A program made the position numbers and the translations under genes. Source: Berberis thunbergii (Eukaryota > Streptophyta > Magnoliopsida > Ranunculales > Berberidaceae). From it: DNA of 64,000 bases. The stretch lies in contig QNQO01000541.1 in NCBI GenBank assembly GCA_003290165.1, positions 248,001-312,000 on the forward strand, read 5' to 3'. Below, in pieces: positions 3,363 to 62,929 of this stretch. The notes under the pieces were generated by a model, which did no database searches, was not told the origin of the DNA, and was given only the letters and a program-made list of their open reading frames with translations. The first letter of the stretch is position 1; every line of letters starts with the position of its first letter.

Positions 3363-3446
3363 TCCCCAATTTTTTTCGCCAAAGCGCGAAACTACTCCCT
3401 CCAAAGCGCGAAAATATTTTCACCAAATTGCAAAAGTGTAAATTAG

Positions 3447-3830: not shown

Positions 3831-3852
3831 AAACCGGCCTTTTGGTGTAGTG

Positions 3853-5162: not shown

Positions 5163-5273
5163 GTAGCTTTCACTTCTGTGTGCAAAGGTCCTTCAGAAAT
5201 TTGGCATAGATAGGAACGTGTTTAATAGCATCGAGCAATGGAATATTCATGTGAACTTGTTTAAAATTTTTCA

Positions 5274-6102
5274 TTATATCGTTAGCATTTGTTCCTTTTT
5301 TGTTGTAGGTAACCGTGATGGAAATGGTGCCCTAGGCAAATAAGATGCTTGAGTGGGGTCAGAGTCAAGAGGCATGTCTTTAGAAGGTGAGGCTTTATCA
5401 GCTTCCTTGTCAGATGGAGATGCAACTTGCTTTGACTTAGACGGAGATGCAACGACACTCGAGTTGGGCACTTGTACCCGATTTTCAACCTGTTTTCCAC
5501 TCCTAAGGGTAGTAATAGATTGGACATCTTCATGGCGTGACTCAGATGTATTACCAATTGTGAATTGACCCTTCGGGTTTGGAACAGGTTGATTAGGAAA
5601 TCTCACTGGCTCTTTCTCAGAAGAAGACTGAGAAATCGTACTCACAGCTATCTCAAGTCTATTGAGGGCTTCAGATTGTTGTTGAGTCGTGGCTTTCAAC
5701 TCAGATATGCCCTTAGAATTTTGCTTAATTATACTTTCTGAGCTGCAAAAACCAATTAACCATTTCCTCTAATCTTGATGTGCTGGATGGAAGAACTTGG
5801 TTAAGGTGGGGCCTAATAGGGCTAGAGGCTTGAGGAGTCTGGGAGACAACAACAGGTCCCCCTTGGTGTGGGCCATGGGCATAGGGAAGATTTAGATGTT
5901 TGGCAGACCCTGAATCGTAATAGTTACGCTGCGTATTATTGCCAGGTCGTCTCATCGCATTAAAAGAGTTGACTTGCTCAGCATAGTATGCAGGATAATT
6001 GTTTTGCAAGTCACAATTAGCTATTGAATGACCAAGACTCGAATATGCAGCACAAACTTCAGATGAAGCGTTTGTGGGAAGTGCAGGTTGAGTCAAATTC
6101 AA
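5274..6102 (-). pseudogene. Athila 1 gag C-terminal region with zinc-knuckle remnant
   Basis: Two ORFs (5725-6102 and 5274-5699) separated by a stop give the C-terminal gag region. The first has a degenerate CCHC knuckle (VCAAYSSLGHSIANC; the second cysteine is missing), followed by YPAYYAEQVNSFNAMRRPGN. The second has the typical linker EALNRLEIAVSTISQ and SITTLRSGKQVENRV. The matching region of the second Athila element (46323-46900) reads YPAYFSE and SITILRSGKLVDNQV. Confidence 0.8.
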
Positions 6103-25545: not shown

Positions 25546-28500
25546 TTAGCTCACTTGCTGCTGGTTTCCATAAATAGGATATGCCCCATAAGTGGCAGCG
25601 GCATACAGTTGTGGATCTGGATGTGGAGCAGCATATCCATACCCATCGTAGACTTGTCCTCCATAATAAGGGCTACTCCACTGACTCCCATAATCCACTC
25701 TTGACTGTAAAAGCAAGACACACAACATTAAGGAAAATTTGGTAAACCAACTACAGAGGATGTGAATTTGCTGAAAGAGACACCCAAAGAAAAATGGTTT
25801 AAGCAAATGTAAAAGATATTCCAACTCCACTTGATGAGCAATTCAGCTTCGATGAGTTACTGAATAAACAAAAAATCAATGAATACCTGTTTGTTTGCTG
25901 GGTTACGACCCCAAGAAAGACGAACTGTCTGCTTGCCAATTACCGTCCCACTCAACTTTGACAAAGCCTCCTCAGCATTGCTTCTGCAACAGGATTTTAG
26001 AGGAATTTTCTCAGTGATAAATATATACTGTTATGTGACAATTCATTCCACTGCATCTGGTGACGAACCACAACTAAACTAAGCGAACACAAATACCTGT
26101 TGGCAAACTGCACAAATCCACATCCTTTACCAGTTGGTATTTTAACAGACACAACCTCACCATATCGGGAAAATGACTGCTTGAGATCTTCATCAGTTAC
26201 ATTGGGGTCTAACCCTCCAACAAATATCTACAGAACATGCATTAATCAGCAAGAAACCAGAGCACTAAAGTCATTCATCCAACACAGAAGATTTCCAACT
26301 TACTGTTGTGTTTGTAGAATCCCCATCAGACTGGGCAGAGGCACCGTTTGATGCATATCCACCTGCAAATACCAAAACTTATCAAGCAATTAATAAAAAA
26401 ATGAAGAAGAAGAAGAAAGACAAAGTGTAATCTATAATTGCTCTCATAGCCTTCATATCTAAAATAGTCACCTGCCTAGATCTCCTCAAACACTGTCATA
26501 GACAGGAAGACATTTGAATAAAAGAAGCTTTCCCTTATTAATTTTATATGAACGTGAACAACAGCAAATGCATAGAGCATCAATGAAGGTCCACAACTTC
26601 AACTCTTCATTTCCATTTTTTCTTTTTCATTTTTTCTTTTGTTGGTGGATTTGATAATCATAATTTACATAAGTGAGCGGTTGCTAATAATTATGCCCAT
26701 GGCTGGGTAAGAAAAAAGGAGTGACATCCCAAACAGCATCTCCATAGAATAGTGGAGAACCTGCCTCAGCTTCATCATGAATCTGAGGCACGATCCTCAG
26801 CTACTTCGGCATGAGCAAAATGCAAGTAATTATGCCTATGGCTGGGTAAGAAAAAAGGAGTGACATCCCAAACAGCCTCTCCATAGAATAGTGGAGAATC
26901 TGCCTCAGCTTCATCATGAATCTGAGGCACGATCCTCAGCTACTTCGGCATGAGTAAAATGCAAGTAATCTGGAACAGGGTTTTATTTCTCGAGTTCTAT
27001 TCAGGCTGATGGATTATGCTATTTTATGAAAATTCAACAAAAAAAGTTCAAGTGTTGGACAGATTGTTTGGGCTTGGGGAGACCACGTTGAATTCATCAT
27101 TGTGTGACTGTGAGAGTCGAACCTAAACTTGATTTGGGTTCGTTGGATAGCCATGCTGCAGCATTGGACTTTTCTAGAGTTAAAGAAGAAAATTTAGTTT
27201 CACAAACACCAGGCAATTCATCAATTTTTTACCAATTATCCCGGAAATCCAGTATGTGAGCAGTCAACAAAGTTGTTGTCCTTTAATTCCGAATGAAGTG
27301 CGCATTATCCTTGAACTTCATCTCCCTCAAAATATAGCCAAGGATTTAAGAGAGATTTGGAAAGACATTATAAGCACAAGAAAAATTTAGTCACTTCTCC
27401 TAATAACTAAGAACCTGGACAAAACCAACAAAAATGAACCTCACAATTTCTAAAGAAGAGTTGAAGGGCAATTATTGCATACCATGTGAAGAATACTGCT
27501 GCTGATATCCTGATGATTTTCTTGGAGTTGCCAGACCAATGCGCATTGGTCTACTACTACAGTATACACCATTCATTTCCGTCATTGCACGTGTTCTCTC
27601 ACTATCATCAGCAAATCTCACAAATCCATAACCCTTTGACCGTCCAGTATTTGCATCAATTACAACTTTTGCACCCTTTACAGAAGGATACTTATTGGCA
27701 AACGTCTCTTGTAGCATAGTATCAGTAACATCAGCAGCTAAATCTCCTACAAAAATAGACCGGTCTGAACCAACATCTGAACGCCTATCGCCCATGCTAA
27801 ATGAGGCCCAATTTAGACGAAACGGTTGGTCTGTGTTAGGCATAATACTGCCATTGTAGCTCTGCAGGATTTTCTCAGCAGATGCATGTGAATAAAATTC
27901 TACAAATCCATAACCTTCTGATTGACACGTCTGCTTATTGCGGATAACCTTTATGGAACATACCTGTATTTAAATGCAGAAAGGTCACAAAGCTTGTACA
28001 AATATGATATTAACTGTTAGCTAAGGAAACTAATTATTACAGCAACAGGAAATCTATGGTTTTCAATTATTCTTTATTTGTTAATTTCAACGTACCTTTA
28101 CATTAATCCACTTATTTGCAATAATAAGGTTCTTGAGCTATAAGAAAAGAAACTCTAAACCTGTAACACATAAATAAGGTTACAGGCTTATGCGTCTAGA
28201 CACAACACATCATAAAAGGGATGATTACCATGGGCTAATGCTTTCTTTCCACACCAAACAAAAGGAAAAAAATTATCAAGAAAGAAAATATTTGTTCGTG
28301 CAATAGAAATGATAAACGATAACAAAAAAGTCCCACAAGGGCATAATATTATGTAAAAACAGATATGACAGTCACCCTGAGAAGCATGTTGTCAGACAAT
28401 ATAAGTAGGAAACCCAAAAGAGCTTTATTCAAATTGACAATTGAGTATGAGATCTTTAGTTTTTATCCAAGAAACTTTTCTTCAAGTACTCCTACTGAAG

Positions 28501-31500
28501 ATTGAAGGTACTATTTAGAGAATCCTTCACATTCAATTTTCATATAACATCCTATCAGTTTTAATGAAATTTGGAGTTTGGCAGTTCAAATCTGAGTAGT
28601 TAGATTCATTTTGAGTAGTTAATAAAGCCTGCAGTCCAAGCACAAGACAAAAAGCATGTGTAATTGAAGTGAGATGCACAAGCATAAAGTAAAAAGGAAA
28701 AAAAAAATTGATCGATAAAATTAGAACGATAAAATAAGGAAATGCACCAGAACTTGTTAAATAATGAACCTAGGGTGCAACAAGTAATGCGTCTTATATA
28801 GATAGGCAGACCTAGTCAACACGCTAACTCCACTGCATGCCTCAAGCTTGATGAGGAAACTTTTTTGTAAAATAATAATTCTTGAAGTATTCATTTCTTA
28901 GGTTGATGGAAAGGAGATGAGCCATGAAACTGTTTGTCCCTTTCCTCAATAGAGAAGAATCCACCTCATTTTCCTGTTCCTTCCATAGGTCAAGTCTAGT
29001 AATGTGTCCTTTACCCTACCTAGTTCCCTCCTATTATTCTAGGAAATGGTAGATTTAGTAGTATAATGATCTGATTAAACACAGTACGGAATATGGCAAG
29101 ACATTCTGTGTACCATTATGATTGTTTACTTTTAAAAGCAGGGATCTAAATCTGTGTAGGATTAGCTTTACTCCTATTGCATTCTATGACAATGTCCATC
29201 CTATTCCGGAAAACACACTAAATAAATTGATGTCGAAAGAGAAAAAAAAATCCAAAGAATTACAATATTGTATGAAACTCACAATGAATATATATAACCA
29301 GACAGAAAATGACCATGCTAAAAAAAATTCTTACCAGCGAGAGACCCAAAAACAATGAAAAGACTGAAAAACAAATGGTCAAAGCGATTGAGAAAATTAA
29401 GAAAATCCCTCAATCCAAATTGATGATAAAATTTTAGTCAACCATCATAGCTGCTGCACTTTTTTTTTTACTACGCATCCAACATGAACAACCTTGGTTG
29501 ATGGAACATGATTAGCTCTAAGGACAAGGATCAAGAGTAAATGTCCTACACCTCGAATGCCCCCCGAAACCGACGGTGTGCCAACAATTGGCTTAGGTCC
29601 ATATCATGTATCAACCTAATTAGGAATTGGCAGGATTGACCCAAAGAGTGCCAAGTAAAAATTTGATTTGCTATCAGTTAATCCTTCCCATTGACAGCCT
29701 TCAGCAAAAATAAATATAGAAAGAACAGACACAGGCAATAAATTTTCCACTCAAATATCAATGATGTATTAACCTATATGACAGAAAATCCTATAATTAC
29801 GTAGTTAACATACTTTTATCTAGCGAATTTACAAACATGTCTCAAATTTAACATGCATTCAATGTGACAGACATGATCACTTATATGGAAAGCCTATTAA
29901 AATATGATGATGGCATGGTAGCATGCACACCAGATGTGATATATGGAAAACTCAGAAAAATGGCCCATTTGTCCGATAGATAGAGATAATTTCATAAAAC
30001 AAAACCTTGAGTAGGATAAATGGGTCAACCAAAACCTCAAAACTAATTTCATACAATTTAAGTATTGAAGGCTGAAATACAAAATTCAAAATGTAAGGTA
30101 GTGTCAAATTTAGGATGCCACCAGATGGGTGCACAAATTCCATCCCTTTACATGCGCTAAAAGGATAACTGTCATGAACAAACGTCAAGGGGCTTCAACC
30201 GATTAAGGCATTGCATTTTTTCATTATTATTCTTGTTACCGTTATACTTTCATAAATTAAATACCAGAACATCCAACTTAATTTGCATTACAAATGGAAA
30301 AGGTTATAAGCTTATGGAATGAACCCCTGATTTTAATGAATCCTTCAAAGTAAAGGAACACCTCATAGCTCTACCAAAGTATATATATAATAATTCCATA
30401 ACAAGGTTTAAACAGTGAAACCACTTTCCGATAAATCACCCTAGATTTTGAATAATGATCCCACTCTTAGGTTTCATTAGATGGTCCGATAGGGATGAAC
30501 CCGTTTACATTAAAACTACCATAAATTTACTAAAGGTCTAAAACTCAACATATATAAAAAAATATATATGAGAAATGCTAGGAAACCATGTTTTGTAAAC
30601 ATGTTTTGCAATCAGGATGACGTGTCATGATCTGGAAAGAATGATGAAATCCCCGAAGATTTATGTGTATCTCAAAATTGTAAAAAAACTCCCCTAACAA
30701 TGCCACATCATCATGGTTACGAAACATGGTTTCCTGGCCTTTCTCAAAAAATATCTCGGCAAGTAATGAGAAAATATATAATTAATTGCACGATCAAACC
30801 AAATTCTACAGATAACCTAGTGCAACAAAAAAGATTATCGTCCGAAATATGGAATTTCTTCAAACAAACAAGGTCATCAGAATCTTAAAACAGACACTAT
30901 AACTCAAGTGAACTGAAAACACTGAATATTCTAAGATAAACCAATAGCATAAAAGAGTGACCACAAAAACAAGACCCCACATGTCAAAAACCCAGATAAG
31001 TACCTTTAAACTGCAAAAACTTGAACGAGAACTATAAGATTCATGAAAAAAATAAAAAGACCCAACTGTATGAAGCCAAGATTTGATTTTTCTGAAGAAG
31101 CAGAGGTAATGATGAACCATCAGAGGAATTTAATTAACGAGATTAGGTTCCTGCACAAAAGGGGTCGAAAACGACAAGTAGCCTAAAATTTACCAAAAAT
31201 AAAGTTAGCCAAAACTACCTATCTATTCAAAAACATCCCTCCTTTAGGTAAAAAGTGAGGAGATTTGACAAGAAACATGCAAATCAAAAAAAAGACCAAA
31301 ACAATAACAGATCGAAAGAAAGAAAAACTGACCTCCCCTGTGTGACCGAAGCAACTGTGCAAGTAACCCTCATCCATCCAATAGATGAGGTCGCCGATCC
31401 AGATGGTCTTGTTCTCCTCAGTCGATCCTTCTTGCTGGGAGTGTTGGTGGTGAAACGGCGGTGGTGGCTGATGGAGATATGGTGGAGGCGGCATGTAGTG

Positions 31501-31674
31501 TGGAGCGAAGTGTTGCGGCATCATCTGGTGTTGCATCATCATCGCCGCTGGTGGGTACTGCATTGGCATCCACTGTGGACGCTGGTGTACTTGCGGTGCT
31601 TGTGTCTGTGCTTGCGGTTGTGCATCCGAAACTCCACCACTACCACTACTTCCACCGTTGTTCGTCGATTGCAT
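25546..31674 (-). CDS. RBP45/47-type RNA-binding protein with three RRMs (intact)
   Basis: Six exons: 31333-31674, 27483-27963, 26304-26362, 26097-26227, 25887-25983, 25546-25704. They splice in phase (342+481+59+131+97+159 nt) to 422 codons plus stop, the usual size for this family of plant nuclear/cytoplasmic poly(A)- or U-rich RNA-binding proteins. The N-terminus is Gln/Met/Pro-rich (residues 1-88). RRM1 spans about 90-168 (KTIWIGDL; EGYGFVEF, split by the 3.4-kb intron 1). RRM2 spans about 182-260 (RSIFVGDL; KGYGFVRF). RRM3 spans about 294-366 (IFVGGL; KGCGFVQF), and the tail is Tyr/Gly/Ala-rich, ending NQQQVS. In RRM1 the usual GDLQYWMDE is GDLIYWMDE. All introns have GT..AG ends. The family is related to TIA-1/Pub1-like stress-granule proteins. 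No defect is seen, so I take it as an active gene; the exact paralogue (RBP45 or RBP47) is not settled. Confidence 0.95.
26690..26967. repeat. 139-bp tandem duplication in intron 2 of the RBP47-like gene
   Basis: 26690-26828 is repeated at 26829-26967 with a handful of differences. Both copies start ATTATGCC and contain GAATCTGAGGCACGATCC. The unit lies wholly within the intron 26363-27482. Confidence 0.93.
27964..31332 (-). other. Intron 1 of the RBP47-like gene (3.4 kb)
   Basis: Donor GTCAGT (31332-31327) and acceptor TACAG (27964-27968 region) are canonical. The intron is AT-rich; I see no embedded gene or clear transposon. The small ORFs inside have no family features. Confidence 0.8.
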
Positions 31675-32103
31675 CTCTGCTCGCTATGTGTTTGATGAAT
31701 TTACTCAGAGATTGGGATTGATTTATAAAGAGCGCCTGAGAAGAGAGGCCGAAGGATAGAGAGAGTTTGGTACAAGACGAGAAACTCTTCTTCTCAGATT
31801 AATAGCGGATGACGGTGTGAGGTTTGCTGTGGGATGTACGATAGACCTCGAGATGCGTACAACCCCTTCTATTGATCGAGGGAGGGTTTTGGACCTTATG
31901 TGGTGTCTCTCATTTCTGCGATCGGCCGCCAGGGAGAGAGTCCTTTGCCTTCCCTTATTATTAGATTTGTTCGTTCAGTCACTGACTCTCTCTCTCTCTC
32001 TTCTATTCGGATTTGCTCACGCGGAAACCTAAGTGTTGAGCTAAGCATATTGTCGATTCGTTGGTGTAGGGTGCCTCTGGATCTGAACTCAGTTAGGATT
32101 GAC
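31675..32103 (-). promoter_or_regulatory. Upstream region of the RBP47-like gene
   Basis: The promoter side of the gene on the minus strand. It holds a TTTATAAA word at about 31721-31728 (54 bases from the ATG, so it may lie in the leader) and a CT/GA dinucleotide run at about 31986-32001. A MITE inserted 430 bases upstream of the start codon bounds it. Confidence 0.45.
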
Positions 32104-46322: not shown

Positions 46323-47408
46323 ATGAACACAAGGGATTATCCAGCCTATTTTTCCGAGTAAGTCAATTCATTTTATGACATGCGACGACCTGATTATGAT
46401 CCATATTTAGATTATTACAACCCAGGTCTAGCCTATCATCATGACTTCTCATGGGCTCATGGTCAGTACCATGAAGGCCCTCTAGACACTCCTCAAGCTT
46501 TTATTCCTGATAATGAGTTAAAGGATATCATGAAAATTTTTAAAGAGTGAACAGGAGAAATACTTGTGCAAAATTTTCATGATATCACATAATTGACAAC
46601 TATTTATCAACAAAACTCTCAAGCTATCTGGAAACTTGAGATGACTGTGAGTCAGATAGTTGAGTCTCTTTTTGAGATAGAGTCAAAAAAATTCCCTAGC
46701 CAACCTATTTTCAACCCAAATGGTCAATTTGAACTTAGTGGCACATTTGAGTCGGACAGTGAAGATGACCAATCCATTACTATCCTTAGGAGTGGAAAAT
46801 TGGTTGACAATCAGGTAGGAATGCCTGACATAAGTGTTATTATATCCTCACCCAATTTTACACAGGTTGCATCCTCATCTCATAAGAAGGCTGATAAAGC
46901 CTCATTTATTGATGACCCTGTAGATTCTGAGACACTACAGACACCTCCTTCCCATGTTGACTCATGCCTTCCTAGTGACTCATGCATCAAATCAAACTGT
47001 GAACATTCTTTAGAGTCTCCCCTTGCTTGTTTTCATGATACACATGGCCATTCAAAGGCTTGTTTGACTCATTTGAGTTTAGACTTTGATGTTGATGATT
47101 CCATTAGGGAAGTCAATGATTTGCTTGACTCAATCCCCATTGTGGATCCTAGTTATAAATGGAAGTCTAAAGTGAAGCCTCTTCCACTCAGTGAGTCAAA
47201 ACTAGTCCCATCAGTTGAGCCACCTGAGCTTGACCTTAAACAATTACCTGACACCCTCAGGTATGCATTTTCAGGTGATGACTTGTCTAGACCAATATCT
47301 CTATATGATTCATGTGATGAGCCTGTACCACCTGATATATCCATCATCTCATCTACTTGCATCACATTCCCATTTACTAAGGCTACTTTCACCGATCCCT
47401 TGTGTTGA
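46323..47408 (+). pseudogene. Athila 2 gag C-terminal region and gag-pol linker
   Basis: 46323 onward reads NTRDYPAYFSE, a stop, then VNSFYDMRRPDYDP, matching YPAYYAEQVNSFNAMRRPGN in Athila 1. The 271-codon ORF from 46593 has AIWKLEMTVSQIV, FPSQPIFNPNGQFEL, SITILRSGKLVDNQV, then DDSIREVNDLLDSIPIVD, PLPLSESKL and ELDLKQLPDTLRYAFSGDD. The protease domain that should lie between is deleted. The N-terminal capsid is absent. Confidence 0.82.
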
Positions 47409-47804
47409 AGTGAGGATTTCAATTTTCACCATCCTGTTGTGAAAATTATTCAATCTTCTGATTTGGAACCAGACATAGGATTTTCCCTTTTTGGAGCACG
47501 CAAGGATCATTTGTTGTGTATGACTACTGGTCACTTTTGGAATGTCCTAGTGTATTTGGTGCCCCATGTGATTGTTATATTTGGGTGGGCTGATCCTCAA
47601 CTGTTCAGGTTGTCGATATACGACCATAGACTAAGTGTTTGTCATGTTCTTCCTCTCCACTTTTCGATACACCATTTTTTAGGAAGAATATTTGTCGGGC
47701 TGATGACGGAAAACCAAACACTCCTAGGAGGCAGCCTAGCTTTAGTTGTGTGTCTTTACTGTTAGTCTGGATTGATTTTCAAGTACCCTATTTAGTTGTG
47801 TTTC
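47409..47804 (+). other. Athila 2 sequence up to the CACTA insertion
   Basis: Small ORFs without domains. The CACTA element interrupts it after TTC at 47802-47804; the sequence resumes at 57346. Confidence 0.55.
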
Positions 47805-47829
47805 CACTACACCAAAAGGCCCATTTACC

Positions 47830-48180
47830 CTAAACCGTTGGCTTATTTGCCACGGCCAGAAATCGTGGCTACAGTGGCCAACGGCCTAAAACCGTTGCTA
47901 AAAAAGGCTTGGCCACGGTTCTAAACTGTTGGTGTGTTTGCCACGGCTAAAAACCGTGGCTATAGTGCACAACGGCCTAAAACCGTTGCTAAAATGCATG
48001 TGTGTTGCACGTGAAAGTGTGGAGAAGTGGCCACGGTTCTAAATCGTTGGTTTAATTGTCACGGCTAAAAACCGTGGCTATATCGGCCAACGGTTTAAAA
48101 CCGTGGCTAAAAACAATACACCAAAAAGTTGCAATGGTTTAAAACCGTGGCTATATCTGCCAGCGGTTTAAAACCGTAGC
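47830..48180. repeat. CACTA 2 left subterminal repeat array
   Basis: About eleven palindromic units of the kind CCACGGTTCTAAACCGTTGG alternate with GCCACGG.TAAAAACCGTGGC. The outermost 70 bases match the end of CACTA 1 (CACTACACCAAAAGGCC, then CCGTTGG.TTATTTGCCACGGCC). Confidence 0.9.
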
Positions 48181-48383
48181 TAAAGAAAATAGTTTCACGC
48201 TTTGGGCGAAATATTTTGGGGAAAAACTGACATGGTGAATGCGCTTTGGCAAAAGAAATTGGAGGAAAAACACAGTGGAGAGGGGAGCAGATTTGGCGAA
48301 AAAAATTGGGGAAAAACTAGGGTTTTCACCTTACAGCTCCCTTTCTCTATTTTAGTTTCGATCGTCTTCGCTTCTCTTCCGAG

Positions 48384-51300
48384 ATGGGCAAATCTAGCAA
48401 TAAGTCTCAAGTAACACTTCTTCCCCCTTCTCTTGTATTTTTGATTCAATCGATCAATGTTCATGTTCTCTGTTTCTTAGTCTTGTGTAGGTCGTTGCAG
48501 CCACCCCTGTTTCTGCAAAATCTTCAAAGAAAGGTTTGATTAGAATCTTCAAAATCGATCGATGTTAGGTCCGGACTGATTAATTAATGTTGGTGTTTTG
48601 TGGTTGCTGTTCGGTTTAATAGGCAACAAGAGAGAGGCTGATGTACCAATCGAGGAAATAGTGGCTATCAAGAAGCAGAAGTTGGACGAGAAGGTCGCCA
48701 TCAAGAAGAAGAAGAAGGAAGAGACCAGTAGTTCCGAGGATGAGGATTCTTCTTCTGATGATGTAAGTGTTTTTTGTTAAAACATTGTTAATAACGGCTT
48801 GTTTTATTAGTCTGAAGATTTTTTCAAAAAAAATTAAATCATACCTTTTTTCTATATGGGGTTTTGTTAATTCGGTGTAGGAGCCTGTTGTTCCTTCAAA
48901 TAAAAACCTGTTTTAGTTTCTAAGAACGCTTCTGTTAAAGGAGAGCCTGAAACCAGCGGTTCTGATTCTTCAGATTCTGATTATGATGTGAGTGCTTACT
49001 CATTCTTGATCTAACAATCATAGAAAAAAAAGTGTTTTTAAATTAATTTTTTTCATTATTTTGGATGTTTTAGTGTAGATTTACAAATGAAAATTAGAGT
49101 GTTTTCTATGGGAGTTGTTTCTTGTGTGTGTTGTAGGAGCCTGTTGTTAAGAAACAGCAACCAGTTTCTAAGAAACCTGTAAAGGGAAAGGCGAATACTA
49201 GCAGTTCTGATTCTTCGGATTCTGACAGTTACGATGAATCTGATGACGTGAGTGCTTGGCTATACTTAATATAGTTTTTGCACGTACCATTATTCTCTAA
49301 TGTAACTTTATTCTGTTTGGTTAGATAGCGATGATTCTAATTTTGATGATGTTAGTGCGGATACTCTGGTTAATCACTGTTGATACTTGATTGATTTGAT
49401 ATAATTGCTATATCCATTTTATATCTGCAAATTTGTTAGTTTCTTACTTTAATTTAGTACATGAGCATTTGTCATGCCGTTTTAATTTAACAACTTCCTT
49501 GGATATCCAAACAGTATTGACATACCTTCAAAAGTATTGAATCTAATACCTACCCCATACCTTTATTCCCTTTTCTTTGGATGTTGAACATAATCATTGA
49601 TACTCTTGTGGACCATGTCAGAGTAAATTTCGTCTGCATTTTAAAACCTATTTTATGTGAATGTGTGCTACAAGACTTACTTCAGTGCTGGATCCTTGTA
49701 GTAATTTTCCTTTTGCTCTTTCGATGCCAATTATCATTTTGGAAATTTGATCTTATGATGTGTTGGCTTATTCTTAGGAACCCAAAGCCAAAGTGCCAGC
49801 CAAAAAGTTACATGTGGCTGCAACAAGGAATGGTTCTGTGGCAGCTCCCAAGAAGAAAGAAGAATCAAGTGATGATTCTGATGATAACTCTGATGAAGAG
49901 GAGGTAAGTTCTAGCAGTGTCAAATTATTCTTGTGTGTTTAGCATACTTCTCTAATTAGTGCAAGCTAAACATGTATCTTTAATTTTGACTTGTTATTTT
50001 TTTTGTTTGTTTCTAATAATCGCTTCACTTATGCAGAAAAAATCAGCAAAGGCACCCATAGCTCCTACCAAGAAAGGAGTTGTCTTGGTCTCCAAAAAGA
50101 AAGATGAATCTAGCGATAATTCAGATGATAGCAGCTCTGATGAGGATGAAGTAAGTGCAATTGTTACTAATATTTCTAGTTTGTTTTTGTTCCCTTGTTT
50201 GTAATGCTTTTATGCATTTATATATAATGTCCATATTATCAACAACATTATTTCTTTCTTGCTGTTACTGAGATGATGTAGCATTTATCTGGATGGGAGT
50301 GAACATTCTTGTTAAAAATTTCAAGGTTTTCAATTTTGGTTTCAAAACAATTACATAAGAAAGGCATTCCTGAACCAAATATATTATTACGTTAGTGTTG
50401 GTGTGGAATGCTTTGTTTACCTACCATTGGCATTGTGATTTTTTTTACCTCTATTATTTATTCAATCATGTTTATTTTCGGAACATGCAGAAACCTACTG
50501 CCACCCAAGATATAAAGTTGCCAGTAGCCTCCAAAAAGTAAGATGAGTCAAGTGATGACTCTAAAAGTGAATCTGATGAAGAGGAAGTACATGTTTAATA
50601 TTCTTTGCTTCAAAGCCTTACTTGTTGGATTGGCGTGGCTAAAATGTATATGATGACTTGAAGAGCGCTGATAGTGATAGTTCCTCTGAAAGTGATTCTG
50701 AGGATGACAAGGTTTGATTTCTTCACTATAGTTTGTATTTTTCATGCAAGCAAGTTGGAGTGTTTTTTTTAAATCATCACTCTGATCCTGAAGGCAGGCC
50801 TTTTAGTAATGAGGTTTACACTACCTTTGTGATTGAGATGTTAGTTTTGGATTAATTAACTGTCTTTGAATACAAGATTCTCATCTGCTACATTTATTTT
50901 GTTGTAGCCTGCTGCTAGTAAGAAGAATGCCAAGACTGTCAAAAAGGAAAGTAGTAGTGATGAAGACAGCTCAGATGAGAGCTCTGATAATGAGCCTTCG
51001 AAGGCCCAACCTGTGAAGAAGGTATAAGCTTGCTAAAATGCAACGTCAGTTTGTTTTCGTTCTGTAAGTAATTTTCACAGATTGTGTATATGAAGTTTTT
51101 CTCATTCCTTAGTATTTGATCTATGCATTTTAGCAACCAGCCAATGCTTCCAAAGAAAGATCTGATGAAGAATCATCTGACGAGGAAATGGTAGATGTTG
51201 CATCGCCAAAAACCAATATTAAGCAAGTTGCTACAAAAACTTAGAAGAAAGCAGTAAGTTTCTTTTCTTTCCATCCAATGAAAATAGTCATAAATTTTTT

Positions 51301-51631
51301 TGCTGCAACATTTAAAAAGTTCCCCTTCAAAATTGTACAGCCTCAAACTCCTGCTACACCACAAGAGCAAACCAGTGGATCCAAGACACTTTTTGTTGGG
51401 AACTTGTCTTTCAATATTGAAAGAGCTGATGTGTAAGTGATAGTTTATTGAATCTATTGCAGAACATATTCCTATTATTTTTGTGTACTTATTTTGGTCC
51501 AATTCTGTTACAGGGAGGAGTTCTTCAAGGATGCTGGTGAAGTTGTTGATGTACGTTTTTCATCAGATGAGGATGGGCGGTTTAAAGGATTTGGGCATAT
51601 TGAATTTGCTTCAGTAGAAGCAGCACAGAAG
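48384..51631 (+). pseudogene. Nucleolin, 5' two-thirds of the gene (captured fragment)
   Basis: Exons at 48384-48410, 48491-48533, 48623-48762, 48881-48987, 49137-49247, a small 49326-49350 relic, 49778-49903, 50037-50150, 50491-50586, about 50662-50711, 50908-51021, 51134-51253, 51341-51432 and 51514-51631. All but the relics have GT..AG ends. They encode MGKSSNKSQ, then Lys-rich and acidic Ser/Asp/Glu repeats (EESSDDSDDNSDEEE and similar), then RRM1 with KTLFVGNLSFNIERADV and RFKGFGHIEF. This is plant nucleolin, the nucleolar rRNA-processing protein; RRM2 and the Gly/Arg tail are missing. In-frame stops or a shift in the fourth exon (48916 region), the 50491 exon (KK-stop-DE) and the 51134 exon (KT-stop-KKA) show it cannot make the full protein. 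Confidence 0.9.
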
Positions 51632-53164
51632 GTATAACTAATATCTCATGGGTTTTCCTCATTTAAATATTTAATATCAACTCTTGAAGATAATTTTCCT
51701 CATTTAAAAATTGGGGTATCCTAGCATATATCCAACATAACTCTATATTGAAAAGTTTTCCTCATTTAAAAATTTAATATCAACCCTTGAAGAGAATTTT
51801 CATTAAACATAGAGTTAACTCTTGTTTTCAATTTCCTTTCCCACCATAAATTAGATTATACAACTTTTTTGACTTCTACAAAGTGTCCACCCAATTGTTC
51901 AAAGTCCCAACTTTTCATCTCATTTGTCATCACACTTTCCTTATTGGCATAAAATCAGTTTTATTCTCTTAGAGAATTCAAAAACTATATACATTAAATT
52001 GCTGCAAGGTGAAGAAGAAACACAGTGGTTGTAAACTCACTTTGCAACATTCATGGCTCCACAGACCATCTCAGCCTTCATTTTCATCTTGGTATTCATA
52101 CGCTTCTCTGCTGCCCTGCTCTTCATCGTTTTGCATGGTGAGCTTCTCTTTAATTTCTCTTTTATATTGATTGAATTTAATATTTACAAAAGATGTTCTG
52201 GATTGATTATAGATTGTATGTGTGTGAGCTCCTGTGACTTTTATCTAGGATATTGCATGTGAGCTCCTGTGACTTTTATCTATTTATTTGTTTCTGATGT
52301 TATATTTAATCAAAGGAGCCTTAGGAAATTGATTCAGCAATAATAGATTGAAATATATTTTCTCTGAGATTGCTTGACATGATTAAGTTATATCAAATCC
52401 TGATAATTTCACTTGGATTATATGATTATATAACAGTTTTATTGACACTAGATAAGTGATTAGAATGTATCAAAATTCCAAGCATCGGATTCATTGACCA
52501 TACTACCAAAATAAATCACCATCCCAAGGCATTTTGCATATCATTTCCTGCTGGCACTTTGCATATCATTTCCTGCTTACGTTTCTACTTACCAAAGGCA
52601 TGCCCATCACACAATTTTGCTCTTCAAGTTACGACTATTTAACATGCCTTCTCAGTCTTTGTACTAGTGTTGCATATCCATTGCACTTTTCAATTATTTG
52701 GTTTGGAAAAAAATTTGTTTGTCATGTTCAAGGACATCTCGTGATCCTCATACCACTTAAAATATCTATTATCAGCACACAATTTTTATCATCTCACTGT
52801 TGTAGCTATATTCATATTATACGGTTTCATTTACTAAATTCTCTTTCTTTCACTTGTATTTAAATAAATTTCCAATTGTATTAGTGTATGATATTACCAG
52901 GTACTTTGTTAGTGTATGATATTACCAGGTACTAGCAGTTTTTGTTGTTCTTTTTGGGCTTTGATTTGTTTGTCCAAGATATATTCATGTTGAGACAGTT
53001 ATGACTGTAATATAGTAAGAATATCCAGAAGTTAGACTGCCTAATACACTTGATGATTGATTTTTCATTAATTTGTGCATGTATCTCCATATGACGTTTC
53101 TGTCATTACATAGTTGCTTGCATGGGAAATTTAACTGAAGTGAATTGATGGTTCTGTTGAGTAG
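51632..53164 (+). other. Spacer in CACTA 2 with one exon-like segment
   Basis: Mostly AT-rich. 52053-52139 opens with ATG and reads MAPQTISAFIFILVF, then IRFSAALLFIVLHG, a hydrophobic stretch ending at a GTGAGC donor. It could be the first exon of a captured membrane-protein gene; I cannot name it. Short direct repeats lie at 52226/52260 (GTGAGCTCCTGTGACTTTTA), 52525-52560 and 52885/52910 (TTAGTGTATGATATTACCAG). Confidence 0.5.
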
Positions 53165-53395
53165 AATATTCTTCTATCAACTGCCGACAGCGACGCTGTG
53201 ATAAAAATTGCCGACTTTGGTCTTGCAAGGTAATAAGGCTAAATGGTTTAACTCTCCTATTAAATTAAGCTTTATCCTTCTACAACTTACAATTCCTTTT
53301 TGTTGAATGCAGGTAGATATGTGGAGCTTGGGTGCAATTATTTTTGAGCTTCTGAATGGTAATCCTCTTTTTTCATGGTAGAAACAATGTCCATG
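53165..53395 (+). pseudogene. ATG1-like protein kinase, two exon fragments
   Basis: Exon 53165-53229 reads NILLSTADSDAVIKIADFGL: kinase subdomain VII with the DFG metal-binding motif. After an intron, 53313 onward reads VDMWSLGAIIFELLNGNP (subdomain IX) and, after a one-base shift, FHGRNNVHV. The wording is closest to ATG1/ATG1t autophagy kinases. The exon between them (activation loop, APE) is missing, so the fragment is dead. Confidence 0.8.
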
Positions 53396-53469
53396 TACCT
53401 CCTTCCTTTCACTGCTTTGGTCATAATATGCCAGCCTTCTTTCTGTATTTTATAAAAACAGTTTTGCAG

Positions 53470-53538
53470 GCTTTTATAAGCACAACTGCGACAATCTACA
53501 AGAAGATTCAGGACGGTGTCTTTGATGTATCAAATGAG
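53470..53538 (+). pseudogene. RAB2/RABB1 small GTPase, one exon
   Basis: Acceptor TTTTGCAG, then 69 bases coding AFISTTATIYKKIQDGVFDV plus SNE, and donor GTTTGC. This is the penultimate C-terminal segment of plant RAB2/RABB1 (usual form: AFIKTAATIYKKIQDGVFDV). The GTP-binding part and the prenylated C-terminus are absent. Confidence 0.85.
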
Positions 53539-54431
53539 GTTTGCTCACTAAACATTACTTTTGCTGCTAGACTATGAACTTGATTGTTAAGGGAGAAAGA
53601 ATGGCTCCCTGCTTATGTGATGAAAGAATTTTGTCAACTCGCCAATGTTTTGGCTTCACCTTTTCTTATTCCTTTGATAATCAAATCAGTTTGACTTGTA
53701 TTTTACAGGTTAGAAGAATTTGATTCAAGTCGAATCTCAATTCTCAGGTAAAATTTTCGGATTCAACCAAAATTCAAATATTTGAAACTCACCATCCCAT
53801 TGCATGGTGACACCGTTTGCATTATTGATATCGTCTCAAGCTAAATGTTTGGACATGGTTTAAGATTTTGATTTTAAGTTGTCAGGATTTGAAATCATGA
53901 TCTGCAATTCTGCATTCAACTAAAATATGTAAATTTGTTATGCTATGAATGAGAAAAAATTTACTATTTCCTGGAGTATGTGTTGCCATTTGCAGTTCAG
54001 AATATGTGCATTTAAAAATGATTTTATAGTGCAAAATTAATTACTGAAATAAATGAGATATGTAAGTAGGAGCAGTCCGTCAAGTTGTCTCTACTATTTG
54101 GTTTTATGTCATATCAATGCATGTAAAGATAGATATTGAAGTAATACAGGTAATTCTGTATGATGTTTTAGTGAAGAGAAGCAATCTTCCTTATTTTACT
54201 TTCTTCTTTTCCCATAGAGAAGTTCACCATAATTAGGTTGTAGTCACTCTCTTTCTCTTTTAAGAATTTATCCTATCTATTTTAAGCCTTACTCTATCCC
54301 TTTCTTTTCCTAAAAGTGTTTTGTGAGATTTTTCTGGTTAAGAATTCTCTATAGATCTATGGATTTGGTATGTACTCATTTTGTTTCTAAAATTGGACAT
54401 TATTATGTTTCTAAATGCAAATTTATTACAG

Positions 54432-54571
54432 ATTTTGACTTTTCATCCAACAATCAGTACAATGCTTCATCATCAATGGATAAAACTGTAAGAGTATGGG
54501 AGACATCAAAAGGCCATTGCATGCGAGTGATAGACGGAGTTGCTTCACAATTATGCATACGGTTTCATCCT
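54432..54571 (+). pseudogene. WD40-repeat protein, one exon
   Basis: 140 bases between ATTACAG and GTGAGT code (D)FDFSSNNQYNASSSMDKT, VRVWETSKGHCMRVIDGVAS and QLCIRFHP. The SSMDKTVRVWE words are one WD repeat, and the rest looks like a plant WDR13-type protein. The usual Ile in QYIASSS is Asn. Confidence 0.78.
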
Positions 54572-55177
54572 GTGAGTACGAACTAACGTTGATGTTCTTT
54601 AATTCAGTGATATGGTAAATTCATTTTCCTATGCTGTTTTTTTTTCTCCTAACATTTCTAAACTACATCCATCCATTTTATGATTTACTGATTTGTGTGA
54701 GGCTGCTCCCAGTCAATTGCTTGTGTTAGTTTTGGTGATTTAATGTATCTCAGTGTCATGTGTCTTTGACAAGTCTAGCTTTTGAGAAAAAATATTGGCT
54801 AGTTAATTTTTTTTTTTTAACTATTGCATATTTTTTTCCACTCAAGTGTGAAATGAATCATAACAAATAGAATGTTAATGATTTGAGTTTGAATGTTAGT
54901 TATTTACTTTTCTTCCTGACAGACACAAATTTCTTCTTCTTTTTCTTGAAAGTATGAACTTTGAACATGTGTTCCTGCTAAAGGGTTGAAGCTAGGATGC
55001 ACAAGTCACAAAGCAAAACCAAAAAGTGATTAGGGAATGGTAATGTCTAATGGGGATGTTATAATTGTTGGTGGTCACATTGCTTTGTTGGTGACAGTGG
55101 GGATTAGAAATTGGTATTCCATTCTGGTCATGTTAGAAATTGGGGATGTTATATTTGAATTTCATAATGTTTAATTT

Positions 55178-55348
55178 GTGCAACTTTATGTGGACAACTG
55201 CCTTGCACACTTGGATGAGATGATGGCCTTGAAGGCAATGCTCATGAAAGCCGATCTCTTTCATCTCGTTTCAGGCATGTGGAAGACTCCGGCAGAGCGC
55301 TGCTTTTTGTGGATGGGTGGGTTCAAGCCCTCTGAAATCATCGAGTTT
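55178..55348 (+). pseudogene. TGA-type bZIP transcription factor, DOG1-domain fragment
   Basis: QLYVDNCLAHLDEMMALK, then AMLMKADLFHLVSGMWKTPA and ERCFLWMGGFKPSEIIE belong to the DOG1 domain that follows the bZIP in TGA factors (usual SGMWKTPAERCFLWLGGFR). No bZIP segment is present. After IIE the open frame runs on into the CAG-rich repeat block. Confidence 0.88.
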
Positions 55349-55510
55349 GCGACCAGTAGCAAACTCGCATCATTGCGTCCCTCGCAGAGCAGTAGTTCGT
55401 CCCTCGCAGCAGCAGTAGTAATTCCCTCGCAGCAGTGCGTACCTCGCATCATCAGCAGATCATCCCTTGCAGCAGCAGCATTGCGTCTCTCGCAGCAGCA
55501 GCAGCATCAA
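55349..55510 (+). repeat. CAG-rich block, copy 1
   Basis: It contains GCGTCCCTCGCAGAGCAG, TTCCCTCGCAGCAG and GTACCTCGCATCATCAG; about 90% identical by eye to 56572-56740. It directly follows the TGA fragment in an open frame rich in Ser, Gln and Ala. Confidence 0.85.
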
Positions 55511-56137
55511 CCGCAGTTCGTCCCTGGCCCTGCCCATAGAATCAGACCAAGAGGGAAAACCTGAATCAACACAGGTTAGTCAGCATTGCGTCTCTCATAT
55601 CATATCATATTGCATGAATCTATCATATTTTGTATAAATGACAAGCTTCCATTGGTCAAAAGCCATTTTGCTAGACATATTGGATATTCTTCTTTTGTAT
55701 CCATGAATGTCAAAGTATAACAACTTAGCTTCCATATTGGATATTTTTTTTACTGAAAACTGTTTTGGACAACTGATTTGTAGTGTTTTTGTGTTGCATT
55801 CCTTTGTATGGGATCACTAAATAGGTTTTGCGAGTGAAATTAGATCTGATGAGGCTCAGATAGTAGTTTTATAGGTCTTTTTGAGCTATTATTTAGAGGA
55901 ACTGATGGAATTTGACATTATGAGCTGAAGTTCATTCAATTAGTTGGATTTGCAAACAAATTTTGCTAGGTTTTAGTTAATGCGAGACAATAGAACTTCT
56001 AGTCAGCTATAAGTCTTAGGTAGATTGTATTTCTTGTGATTAATGATGAAATGTGAAGCTGAAGGCTGAAGTGACTAAGATGTATTTGTTTTAGATCCGT
56101 TTCAGTCTGAGGTGATTTAACAGTGAGAGAAATGGAG

Positions 56138-56471
56138 AGGAGAATGAACAAGTACAGGCAAACTAGTCCAGAGAGGTCTATAGTTTGGACAGAGCCATCA
56201 CCGAAGCGGCATAATAGAAAAGTTGTTGTTGTTTATTATCTCTGCATAAATCACCACCTTGAACATCAACATTTCATTGAGGTTGCACTCTCTTCGCTTG
56301 AAGGTCTTCACTTGAGAGGTATGTGTCTGGCTTGTTTGTTACTTTGTTATACTATATTTCTATTTGAATTTGGGAATGCTAAAATTTAGTATGTTTTGTA
56401 GATGTGATTAATCGGCTTAATGTCTTGAGAGGTAGTGGCATGCCTTCGTTGTATCCGTGGTCTTGTAAGAG
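56138..56471 (+). pseudogene. SOSEKI (DUF966) gene fragment, two exons
   Basis: Exon A (about 56138-56319) reads NKYRQTSPERSIVWTEPSPK, VVVVYYLCINHHLEHQHFIE and VALSSLEGLHLR. Exon B (56402-56471) joins in phase: DVINRLNVLRGSGMPSLYP, then WSCKR. Both have proper splice signals. This is the N-terminal DIX-like domain of SOSEKI proteins, which form polarised clusters at plant cell edges. The usual HPHF is HQHF. The rest of the gene is absent. Confidence 0.9.
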
Positions 56472-56571
56472 GTAAGAGTGTTATAAGAACTGGTTTTGCA
56501 TTCAAAAATCCGCAGATCATAACTGCCAGGACAGTGGGTACTCTGCAGTGAAACAGAGCGCACTCTGGTTT

Positions 56572-56740
56572 GTGACCAGCAGCAAGCTCGCATCAGTGCG
56601 TCCCTCGCAGAGCAGCAGTTCGTCCCTCGCAGCAGCATTAGTGATTCCCTCGCAGCAGCAACAACAATGCGTACCTCGCATCATCAGTAGATCGTCTCTT
56701 GCAGCAGCAACATTGCGTCTCTCGCAGCAGCAGCATCATT
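56572..56740 (+). repeat. CAG-rich block, copy 2
   Basis: Second copy of the block at 55349-55510, in the same orientation. It contains GCGTCCCTCGCAGAGCAG and a longer CAGCAGCAACAACAA stretch. The two copies bracket the SOSEKI fragment. Confidence 0.85.
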
Positions 56741-56984
56741 GTTCCACTTTCTTTGTATTTGAGATATTTAAGTTTGTATGTGTGTCATTGTATTTGAGAT
56801 ATTATTTGATAGATTTTGTGACTCAATTAATGTAATACATTATCTTATTAATTACATTACTTTGCCTCCATTCATGGAAATGTTTAAGTTTGGCACATTA
56901 AAATTTTTATTTTCTAGACATAAAACTTATAAGATGTAATAAAAAGTCATTTGACAGCAAAAAAAAAAAAAAAAAAAAATTTGC

Positions 56985-57330
56985 CACGGTTTTAAACTGT
57001 GGCTAATTATTGCAACGGCTAAAAACCGTGGCTACCTTGCCACGGCTTAAAACCGTTGCTAAAGCTATTTCAACGGCTTAAAACCGTGGCCAAACTTGCA
57101 ACGGTTTTAAGCCGTGGCTACTCTTGCCCACGGCTTAGAACCGTGGCTAAGATTTTGGCAACGGTTTATAACCTTGGCTAAATCATCAACCGTCCTCGAG
57201 ATAAAACCATTGCTAATATTTTAGCCACGATTTTTAGCCGTTACTAGGGATTTAGCGGCACCTCTACAGCCCACGGTTCTAACCCGTGCCAATGGGTTAC
57301 CCCCACGGTTTAAAACCGTTGCTAATGGCC
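56985..57330. repeat. CACTA 2 right subterminal repeat array
   Basis: About twelve palindromic units (for example CAACGGCTTAAAACCGTGGC), preceded by a 23-base A run at about 56958-56980. Confidence 0.9.
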
Positions 57331-57345
57331 ATTTTTGGTGTAGTG

Positions 57346-59296
57346 TTCAGTCATACTCGTTAGCTCCATAACAGTTTTGACTTACAACTTGCCTTCTTTT
57401 TAGTTTTCTTTGTTAGTGTCCAGTCTGCATTTTATCGATTTCTAATGAAAACTTCATGATTTTTATGTTGGTGAGCCTCATTGATGGACGACTTCTTGGA
57501 AATTGGTAAAATCTTCACTGCGGTAATACTGTTCTAACCTCCTCTCATGTACTTACTTCATTCATTTGTCAGAATTATTTTGTTAAACATTGAGGACAAT
57601 GTTTGGGTTAGGTTTGGGGGTAGGTTCATGAGTCGGTGAAATTTTCATTTTTTTTCGTAGTGTTTTCTTTTCTTATTCTTAAAAAAAAAAAAAAAAAAAG
57701 CTTTTCTGTCAAGACAACTTGGTCTTTTGTGAAAATGGATTTTAAATGTTTTATGCTCAAGAAAATGCAAACCAACTTGACATATTGGTATATTGATAAA
57801 GACTGAAAGTTTATTAAGATCCTTAAGTTAGATCTAGTTCATAAGATTTTTCAACTCGATTATCTTTGCACCATGAGCCATATTAGCATAACTTGAAGTT
57901 GATGAGTGAAATATGCACTAGAAAACCTTAGAATAATAGTGGAGACTTAACCCTGAAAGTTTTGAACCTTTCTATTTTTCTGAGGGTTATACATAAGCTC
58001 TGATTTTTCTTTAGTCCGTATTATCTCGTTGATGATCTCATTATTCTCATTTTTCTGATCAATTGCTTTGGGAATGACATCAAAATTGAATTATTACACT
58101 AGAACTTCTTGGCTTATTCAATTAAGATATCATAATACTGACCCGAACTTAGGAAATTATCTAGGCATTTTTTTTTCTTTAGACCATTAACTAGTCTTTT
58201 AACTTACCTATAACATTAACCTTTTTGTATCCTTTTGAGCCTTAGAATAATTTTTATTTGTTAACCCATTGACCTTTACCCAACGTTTCTGGGAATGTGT
58301 ATGGATGGATATACTTGGTGTAAAAAAAGCATCAAAAAACAAAATATGAGATATTTCATAAATCCTCTATTGATAAAAAAAAATAGTTATAAAAAAATAA
58401 TAATAAAAAAATAAAATACAAGAAGATTTTTCAATGAGGATAAAGATGTGAGAAAGAAGAAAAAATTGATGGTGCGCAACATTAGTTTATTCTTGATAGC
58501 CCTAATTGTTCGTTGAATGGGTGTATACATTCCTAGAAACTTTTCATAGAATCCTTTGACATTCCTTATTGACCATTACCCAAGCCCCATTACAACCCAA
58601 CAAAGTCCTAGTTGATCTTAGGTAAAGGTTGGTTCTGTAGATGTGGAGATTTAATAGCCAAGACCTATGGTGTTTGATTCAACATTTCCAAAAGTAATTG
58701 ATATTCCTGTCCATGAGATCATGTTTATTCCATTCTTGAAAAATCCATTCATCATATTACTCTATGTGAGATGATTGTTTTCCATTATTTACTCTTTTCC
58801 TCGCATATAATCTGAGTAAAATACCAAATCTCTGAGTGCTTTATTGTGAGTGACATGAGAGGTTTGAAGTCAAAACAAACTTTCTACAAGAGATTTAGTC
58901 ATTGTTTTAATCTGAAATGAAAAGTTATGTTGATAGTGCCATCCACACACACACATAGAGTTGAGGATGATTGTGAATTTGTCTCTAACTTGTGGAGAAT
59001 ATTAAATTATTTGGAAATTTGTTGATACACTAAAATGACACTGTTGGTTTCTTGCATTTCTTGAAGTTTTAAAATGAACACTGCTTGACCAAGTTTGATT
59101 GAGTCAGTAATGTTTGTGGGTAACATTTCTGGAAACCCTCACGAGACTATAACTCGTCCACTAGAGGTAGTCTAGGGGTTTAAAGCCTTGTTGCACGTTT
59201 AAGGTAAGTGCAACCGATGATATCTGTGAAAGTGAGTTAGGATTTTCTTTTTATTGTTTTGCTCGAGGACTAGCAAAATATAGGTTTGGGGGTATT
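57346..59296 (+). other. Athila 2 3' non-coding region and polypurine tract
   Basis: Non-coding. Typical phrases of this element class are ACATTGAGGACAATGT (57590-57605), TTAGGTTTGGGGGT, and finally GCTCGAGGACTAGC followed by the tract TAGGTTTGGGGGTA (59281-59294) directly before the LTR. Confidence 0.75.
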
Positions 59297-61116: not shown

Positions 61117-62400
61117 TTCGTTACGACCAACGCGACCTCCAATCATCCCCACTAGGACCAAATTTAAGAAATTACACCCGACGCCTAGTCTGCTGCATAG
61201 ATGATGATGGGCGAGGAAGTGAGAGTCTAGTCAGTGCTCTCACCCCCTATGGCAAGGACTAGCCAAGGGATCATTGCTCTTCTACAAACAGTGATCGCCG
61301 AACTTACCAGGTAAGCTTAGTCAGTTCGCGACTGATGACGACAACTTCTGGTGCCCAACACCTAGTTTGCTGCATTTGGATGACGATCGCCGAGGAAGCG
61401 GGAGTCTAGTTAGCGCTATCACGCCTGATGATGATGACTCCCCAAGGTATCATTGCTCTTTTACAGAAAATGATTGCTGAACTTACCAAGTAAGCTTAGT
61501 CAGTTCGCGGTTGATGACGATGGCTTCTGGTGCCCAATGCCTAGTTTCCTGCGCACGGATAATGATGGTCGAGGAAGTCGGAGTCTAGTTAGCGCTCTCA
61601 TGCCTGATGATGATGACTCGCCAAGGGATCATTCCTCTTCTACAGACAATGATCGCCAAACTTACCAAGTAAGCTTAGTTAGTTTGCGATCGATGACGAC
61701 GACTTCTGGTGCCCAATGCCTAGTCTACTGTGCGGATGACAATGACCGAGGAAGTGGGAGTTTAGTCAGCGCTCCCATGCCTGATGACGATGGCTCGCTA
61801 AGGGATCATTGCTCTTCTAAAAACAGTGATCGCCAAACTTACTAGTAAGCTTAGTTAGTTCGCGACTGATGACGATAGCTTCTGGTGCCCAACGCCTAGT
61901 CCACTATGCACGGATGACGATGGACGAGGAAGTGAGAGTCTAGTCAGTGCTCTCACACTGAATGAAGACGACTTGCCATCATTGCTCTTCTATAGATAGT
62001 GATCGTCGAACTTACCAGGTAAGCTTAGTCAATTCGCGATTGGTGACAACGACTTCTGGTGTCCGACATTTAGTCCGCTGTGCGTGGATGACGATGGCTG
62101 AGTCTAGTCAGCGCATTTACGCCTCATGACGACAACTTGCAAAGGGATCATTGCTCTTCTAAAGACAATGATCACCAAACTTACCAGGTAATCTTAGTTA
62201 GCTTGCGGCTAATGATGATGACTTCTGGTGCCCGACGCCTAACCCACTATGCGTGGATAACGCTGGCTGAGGAAATGTGAGTCTAGCCAGTGCTCTCATT
62301 CCTAATGAAGATGACTTGCCAAGGGATAATTGCTCTTTTATAGACAATGACTGCTGAACCTGATCAGACAATCCCAGTTAGTGACAACTGATGAACTGCA
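61117..62400 (+). repeat. Tat 3' region: tandem array of about 176-bp units, seven copies
   Basis: GTAAGCTTAGTCAGTTCGCG or a close variant recurs at 61311, 61490, 61669, 61845, 62019 and 62188, and more weakly near 62365; steps are 179, 179, 176, 174 and 169. Each unit also holds CTTCTGGTGCCCAACGCCTA, GAGTCTAGTCAGCGCTC and AGGGATCATTGCTCTTCT. Frames run open through several units by chance. Confidence 0.93.
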
Positions 62401-62929
62401 GCTTCTGATCAACGCCCAAATCTGTAGCTCGCCATGTGTAGGTGTAGATGATTTGGATGGTGGAAGCCTGATCAACCCCGACTGAAGCTGCAACTTGCCA
62501 CAGGACCACCACTCCTCTACAGTTCATGGTCACCGAATTCAATCAAACCCAATCAACGCCCCTACACATGATGACGACGACTCACCAAACAACCAATAAT
62601 CTCTGAAACACAACGACTTCTGGAGTATCTCAACACCTAGTCTGCAGTGCACGGACAGTGGTGCCACGGCTAGTGGTGGTGACTCGTCAGGGACCGCAGC
62701 CGCTTCCCCTAAAAACAATAGTGGATAAAAGCAGTCAGTTTCAACACAACTCAACTGTCAAACAATGACAATCTGCCAGCGTGTAAGGTCTGAACGTACC
62801 AATTTCGCGGCCTGCAATACTTCTAAAGAAGACACAATGGCACGACAGTATAAGACAAGAGGCAAAGTTACAAAACATGGCTTTCATTAAAATTTTGTCT
62901 TCCTTTGTCCCTAGAAGGACATTACAACT
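62401..62929 (+). other. Tat 3' region between arrays
   Basis: Diverged repeat-like sequence (ATGACGACGACTC, CAACACCTAGTCTGCAGTGC at 62570-62655) fading into unique sequence. No gene. Confidence 0.5.

Follow-up and report, generated by a model that had tools for sequence, protein, structure and literature searches.

A 9541-bp CACTA transposon of Berberis thunbergii with pieces of six host genes in one orientation, and its mosaic family

A stretch of 64,000 nucleotides of the Berberis thunbergii genome (assembly GCA_003290165.1, contig QNQO01000541.1, positions 248,001 to 312,000, forward strand), hereafter the window, was analyzed around a CACTA element located at positions 47805–57345. This element is very probably a non-autonomous multi-gene Pack-CACTA transposon and one copy of a mosaic family in the genome of this species. 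It contains pieces of six unrelated host genes between its ends, and the same chain of pieces is present at two further genome sites.

The following features define the ends of the element, which is 9541 bp long:

47802–47804, no strand: target site duplication TTC, left copy
47805–47817, plus strand: left terminal inverted repeat CACTACACCAAAA
about 47820–48190, plus strand: left subterminal repeat array
48191–48340, plus strand: leader GCGCTTTGG...TTGGGGAAAAA...CAGCTCC, recurring in other copies and partly in a second element of the window
about 56980–57330, minus strand: right subterminal repeat array
57333–57345, minus strand: right terminal inverted repeat
57346–57348, no strand: target site duplication TTC, right copy

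The 13-bp terminal inverted repeat CACTACACCAAAA is located at 47805 on the plus strand and at 57345 on the minus strand and begins with CACTA, as in the superfamily of that name. The subterminal units (CCACGG/CAACGG...CCGTGGCTA) occur in both orientations near both ends, as is typical of CACTA (En/Spm) elements, and the left and right arrays are about 72% alike. A perfect 3-bp target duplication was found in all seven distinct insertions with both ends read, namely, the window (TTC), L011 (TAT), L025 (ACA), L027 (AAT), C8141 (TTA), C7452 (CTT), and L009 (TTG). C501, which has the flanks of C8141, and L037, which has the flanks of L009, were left out of this count. Elements of the CACTA superfamily are mobilized by a CACTA transposase of the TNPD/TNP2 type. 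A six-frame Pfam scan of the element (E ≤ 0.01) detected no transposase model on either strand, consistent with a non-autonomous Pack-CACTA. No further CACTACACCAAAA was found inside the main element, and no empty target site for it was found within the window. The leader at 48191–48340 may serve as a promoter.

The six host-gene pieces, all in the sense orientation and with their introns kept, are arranged from left to right as follows:

48384–51631, plus strand: nucleolin fragment that begins at the start codon and reaches into the first part of an RRM, 13 modelled exons with introns
53165–53378, plus strand: serine/threonine kinase, two exons (Pfam Pkinase)
53470–53538, plus strand: RABB1c (Rab2) exon of 23 amino acids (aa), detected solely by protein search
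54432–54571, plus strand: WD40 repeat exon
55182–55343, plus strand: piece of the DOG1 domain of a TGA-type bZIP factor, broken within an exon at both ends, with the joint at 55181/55182
55541–56471, plus strand: SOSEKI fragment composed of the exon with the start codon and the one after it (DIX-like domain)

According to the six-frame Pfam scan, the plus strand matches the RRM_1, Pkinase, WD40/beta-propeller, DOG1, and SOK models, and the minus strand of the element matches no Pfam family at the same threshold. After manual joining of exons, RRM_1 (6.2e-14), Pkinase (9.8e-9), DOG1 (8.6e-23), and SOK (2.9e-24) all passed the Pfam cut-off. The WD40 exon is the weakest piece by Pfam (2.3e-4, under the cut-off), with its best single repeat in WDR5 (6.5e-4). 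In the protein search, the nucleolin piece reached E ≤ 1e-10 with 366 of the 8000 best candidates; named plant nucleolins make up many of the 120 matches listed, the others being unnamed, hypothetical, or RRM proteins. The RRM piece showed up to 81% identity to the fetched nucleolins. The kinase exons had 1428 matches among solved structures, CHK2 and ULK3 among them; Pfam gives Pkinase, and the ATG1 label, which comes from the first-pass annotation, is an assumption. The best structure matches of the TGA piece (TGA3, 2.3e-14) and the SOSEKI piece (a solved relative, 1.7e-18) are plant proteins. The named matches in the protein searches are likewise from plants, which identifies the window as plant nuclear DNA. 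Positions 55541–55574 presumably represent an exon of the SOSEKI 5′ untranslated region.

The RABB1c exon was missed by the Pfam and PDB searches (no RAB2 match among solved structures). In the protein search, all 63 candidates had E ≤ 10; the best match (3.5e-7) is unnamed, and the first named RABB1c follows at 5.5e-5. Five of the eight matches listed continue in different text on both sides of the exon, as with native borders. In G000:C63 and C5494, a RABB1c exon (aa 14–63) is located about 4 kb ahead of a kinase block and shares its strand; the capture of RABB1c may therefore have involved several pieces. A seventh donor was considered at 52066–52150, which has the look of a first exon (a signal anchor and then GT); none of 44 protein-search candidates was obtained at E ≤ 10, and this donor is not claimed.

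All 13 modelled nucleolin exons have a GT donor, and all 12 after the first have an AG acceptor. Both splice sites are also present in the first kinase exon, in the RABB1c and WD40 exons, and in both coding exons of SOSEKI. Only the acceptor is present in the second kinase exon, and the TGA piece has a splice site at neither end. The first-pass annotation had proposed one complete CACTA element of 9,541 bp with six donors in one orientation and canonical splice sites on most fragments. The ends, the matching arrays, and the TTC duplication bear out the first part of this description, the Pfam matches confined to the plus strand (with RABB1c added by protein search) support the second, and the third is correct with the two exceptions given above.

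The Berberis assembly (2.24 Gb) was partly searchable, and five genome searches were performed. Each DNA search scored 40 candidates, and the counts given here are lower bounds that include the window; many matches are contig pairs with identical flanks or scores (duplicated or allelic contigs), and the number of copies may be overstated by a factor of up to about two. The query of the left end and the nucleolin start was spanned from ≤25 to ≥988 by 20 of 40 candidates, other copies being 82–90% alike (5531 first-look candidates). The block of kinase and RABB1c was whole in 9 of 40 (94–100%; 315 candidates). The WD-to-TGA block was whole in 11 of 40 (860 candidates), and 27 more matches ended at query positions 783–803; 26 of these stopped at 800–803, which is the start of TGA. 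The SOSEKI block was found in 40 of 40 at 96–100% (1281 candidates), 10 of them whole and 30 stopping at query position 957–958, corresponding to about 56498 in the window. L039 and L040, the two read among these 30, have 894 extra bases at window position 56498, which are either more of the SOSEKI gene or an insertion.

C541 (the window), C8141, C501, C7452, and C1252 were whole in all three block searches. In C1252, the kinase is about 9 kb ahead of the WD block with another CACTA element in between. Both ends were read in C8141 (TTA), C501, and C7452 (CTT), and the nucleolin RRM part, read base by base in C8141 and C7452, is 96% alike. C501 is regarded as an allele or a duplicated contig of C8141 because their flanks are identical. 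There are thus three independent insertions of the chain, with the duplications TTC (window), TTA (C8141), and CTT (C7452). Since each of the two other sites has a target duplication of its own, the chain evidently moves as a unit together with its cargo, and the recurrence of the same blocks in the same order speaks against chance. A wrong assembly join or two separate elements, which the first-pass annotation had named as the outcomes that would overturn its reading, are excluded by these independent copies. The multi-copy mosaic family described below and the second related element with clathrin heavy chain in the window were absent from that annotation.

Twenty stretches were fetched at left-end matches, chosen by the query of the left end and the nucleolin start. 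Nineteen of them have the exact left end and represent 13 distinct sites according to the left flank; L028 does not have the exact end. Complete copies are L025 (8834 bp, ACA), L027 (7689 bp, AAT), and L011 (6495 bp, TAT). According to Pfam, the cargo after the nucleolin start is an ABC transporter in L025 and also L026, a GDSL lipase in L027, and an LSD1 zinc finger in L011 and also L012. L028 has weak matches with ribonucleotide reductase and DBINO, both under the Pfam cut-off.

The joints between blocks were read in several copies. L011 shares its flank with the L012 site, of which it is a deletion form. L009 is the window element minus 51669–54049, with the 5-base shared word TAAAT at the joint; its right end has one base changed, and its target duplication is TTG. 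In L022, position 52358 is joined to 54105. In L012, L013, L016–L021, L023, and L024, nucleolin position 51074 is joined to the WD block at 54207 through a filler that is identical in all ten and matches 54266–54285; these ten loci represent one inherited joint and not ten events. In the window element, about 190 bp found between the two kinase exons of other copies are missing, and this part presumably held an exon. At 16 other places, the kinase parts are about 190 bp further apart, and the window query parts overlap by 4 bases (203–206), as would be expected if a deletion occurred at a short shared word. Marks of these kinds (shared words, templated filler, internal deletions) are consistent with repair of DNA in the course of transposition or afterwards. 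Nested CACTA ends were also seen: a left end directly behind window position 50653 in L010 (6836) and L015 (6895), and a right end directly before window position 54335 in L030 (276) and L034 (274).

Further features of the window that belong to the element or to a relative of it are as follows:

1–3852, minus strand: second element, which shares the terminal repeat and has related arrays, its left end at 3852 and its right end beyond the window edge
55345–55540, plus strand: minisatellite-like repeat R1 with a 23-bp period
56568–56740, plus strand: R2, second copy of this repeat, 88% like R1
56959–56979, plus strand: run of 21 A adjoining the right array; other copies have a variable A/T-rich tract here

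The cargo of the second element is composed of 5′ exons of clathrin heavy chain at 2892–912, also in the sense orientation (PDB 7.7e-57; Pfam). Beside the two CACTA insertions there are related retroelement-like stretches at 3860–5770 (minus strand) and 46593–47408 (plus strand). The copy near 47.3 kb is without the second CACTA element and resembles only one flank of the second element's site.

The orientation of the cargo was compared in ten stretches scanned with Pfam on both strands, namely, the window element, the second element, and parts of L011, L027, L012, L025, L026, L010, L028, and L041. Matches were obtained in eight of them, all sense relative to the left end and none antisense; the parts of L010 and L041 gave no Pfam family on either strand. 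When each donor is counted once, ten of ten are sense (nucleolin, kinase, RABB1c, WD40, TGA, SOSEKI, clathrin, LSD1, ABC, and GDSL); eight of these are above the Pfam cut-off, RABB1c was found by protein search, and WD40 is below the cut-off. With the two weak L028 matches added, the count is 12 of 12. The sign test on ten of ten gives 0.002 (two-sided), a value treated as a lead because co-captured pieces would lack independence and the loci were not sampled at random. A possible but doubtful explanation is that this branch of the family is a mobile exon cassette, in which a host 5′ end (the nucleolin leader, start codon, and first splice donor) lies behind the left end and interchangeable pieces follow downstream in the sense orientation only. 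Either antisense cargo would be removed, for example, since antisense would silence essential donor genes, or capture itself would be directional.

The proposed course of events for the Pack-CACTA element is the following. A CACTA transposase from another element would recognize the ends and subterminal repeats, and movement would proceed by cut and paste, duplicating 3 bp of the target. Host DNA with its introns may have been gathered stepwise between the CACTA ends by repeated capture and loss at the DNA level. In one branch, the nucleolin 5′ end would have come to lie behind the left end, and more host pieces would have been added or exchanged downstream, in the sense orientation in every detected case. 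Meanwhile, the chain would have been shortened by internal deletions, marked by short shared words and templated filler. A transcript from the left end or from the nucleolin 5′ end could splice across donors.

Several observations weigh against this reading. An autonomous partner with these ends was not identified, the genome not having been searched for one. Exon 4 of nucleolin carries a frame break, and two further exons have in-frame stops (50539 and 51242); the chimeric RNA spliced across donors that the first-pass annotation proposed is a plausible candidate product, for which splice-site letters and reading frames were examined. The nucleolin start shared by the copies is partly a matter of construction: the query used for their selection contained the left end together with this start, so the copies were not sampled at random, and the second element of the window showed no nucleolin. 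The genome search did not distinguish native donor genes from element copies, and donor identity therefore rests on protein families. Pfam also misses short single exons, such as RABB1c in the window element and a kinase piece in the scanned part of L010; such exons are missed equally on both strands, and the missed L010 piece is sense.

Other explanations of the chain were weighed against the Pack-CACTA reading. It is unlikely that the gene pieces belong to other transposons, such as Helitrons or Pack-MULEs, nested between the CACTA ends, so that the CACTA element itself captured little. Nesting does occur in the family, as seen from the CACTA ends inside L010, L015, L030, and L034, but the inner part of the window element is free of further CACTACACCAAAA (Helitron and MULE ends were not searched for), and the chain lies within the same ends at two other sites. 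About as unlikely is a new host gene whose chimeric transcript is under selection and encodes a functional protein. Most borders have intact splice sites, and omission of three damaged nucleolin exons leaves 311 open codons, a frame that continues when joined to the first kinase exon or to the RABB1c exon. This possibility is opposed by the frame break and the two in-frame stops, by the TGA piece without splice sites, and by the loss of about 190 bp of the kinase; moreover, the open nucleolin frame joined directly to the WD40 exon or the SOSEKI start exon soon reaches a stop.

Capture through RNA, with reverse-transcribed pieces of pre-mRNA and a poly(A) tract after AATAAA as its mark, appears highly improbable. 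The sense-only pieces would follow naturally from it, and the 21 A at 56959–56979, with AATAAA upstream, are the sole such pair among the two runs of at least 15 A or T in the window. Against it, the tract is a variable A/T-rich simple repeat in other copies, this A-rich joint recurs in L027 beside other cargo, introns are present, and the joints look like DNA repair. An assembly artefact is hardly credible: the assembly does contain duplicated or allelic contigs, but the same blocks are found at loci with different flanks. A non-autonomous Pack-CACTA element that belongs to a mosaic family thus remains the best explanation.

Elsewhere in the window, positions 61177–62407 form a tandem array, whose units repeat about every 177 bp and are about 77% alike. 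Open frames with RRM-like text are found at 27472–31683 on the minus strand, which we take to be probably a poly(A)-binding gene of the RBP45/47 type.

The family bears on how cut-and-paste transposons collect pieces of several unlinked genes. Its related copies differ in cargo, the joints are precise, and one site is present in different deletion states, so the steps can be ordered and dated. The sense-only cargo is a lead worth following; if the pattern is true genome-wide, it would provide a test of directional capture versus selection against antisense cargo. In the literature searched, which reached few subscription papers, neither a report of sense-only cargo across a CACTA family nor a description of a nucleolin head common to one branch of such a family was found. 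A counter-example outside the Berberis family is known from grapevine, where Cactavine-5 is a CACTA element with a captured host PPR fragment that is antisense and downstream of the transposase gene (PMC2528002).

Pack-CACTA elements resemble the Berberis element in having CACTA ends with host coding DNA inside. Pack-TYPE elements may contain several loci per element, with the most distinct loci in maize Pack-CACTA, and the capture route proposed for them is neighbouring insertions followed by joint excision (PMC8903248). The Berberis copies differ from this route in showing gain or exchange, templated filler, and deletion. The accessible Pack-CACTA and Pack-TYPE literature contains no description of the orientation of pieces across a family (PMC8903248). 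A 2026 review considers that an undiscovered capture mechanism may exist beside the neighbouring-insertion model (PMC13317346). Maize Helitrons likewise show stepwise gain, and related elements share some fragments and differ in others, whereas the class, ends, and mechanism are different (PMC3288121).

The closest described case is Tgm-Express1 from the soybean wp allele, a non-autonomous CACTA element of 5.7 kb with five host-gene fragments, whose exons are spliced into chimeric RNAs; 12 different transcripts were cloned (PMC1947982). The multi-gene Pack-CACTA kind is therefore already known, and six co-directional donors are not new in kind; the first-pass annotation, which had called so many donors in a co-directional chain unusual, is not supported as worded in this respect. 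Both elements contain several unrelated host fragments with introns kept and canonical splice sites. Tgm-Express1 sits in a gene intron, and its RNAs start at that gene, whereas the Berberis element is located in repeat-rich DNA. The Berberis element is further distinguished by its length of 9.5 kb, its six donors, the nucleolin 5′ end that follows its left end, and the different cargo of its relatives.

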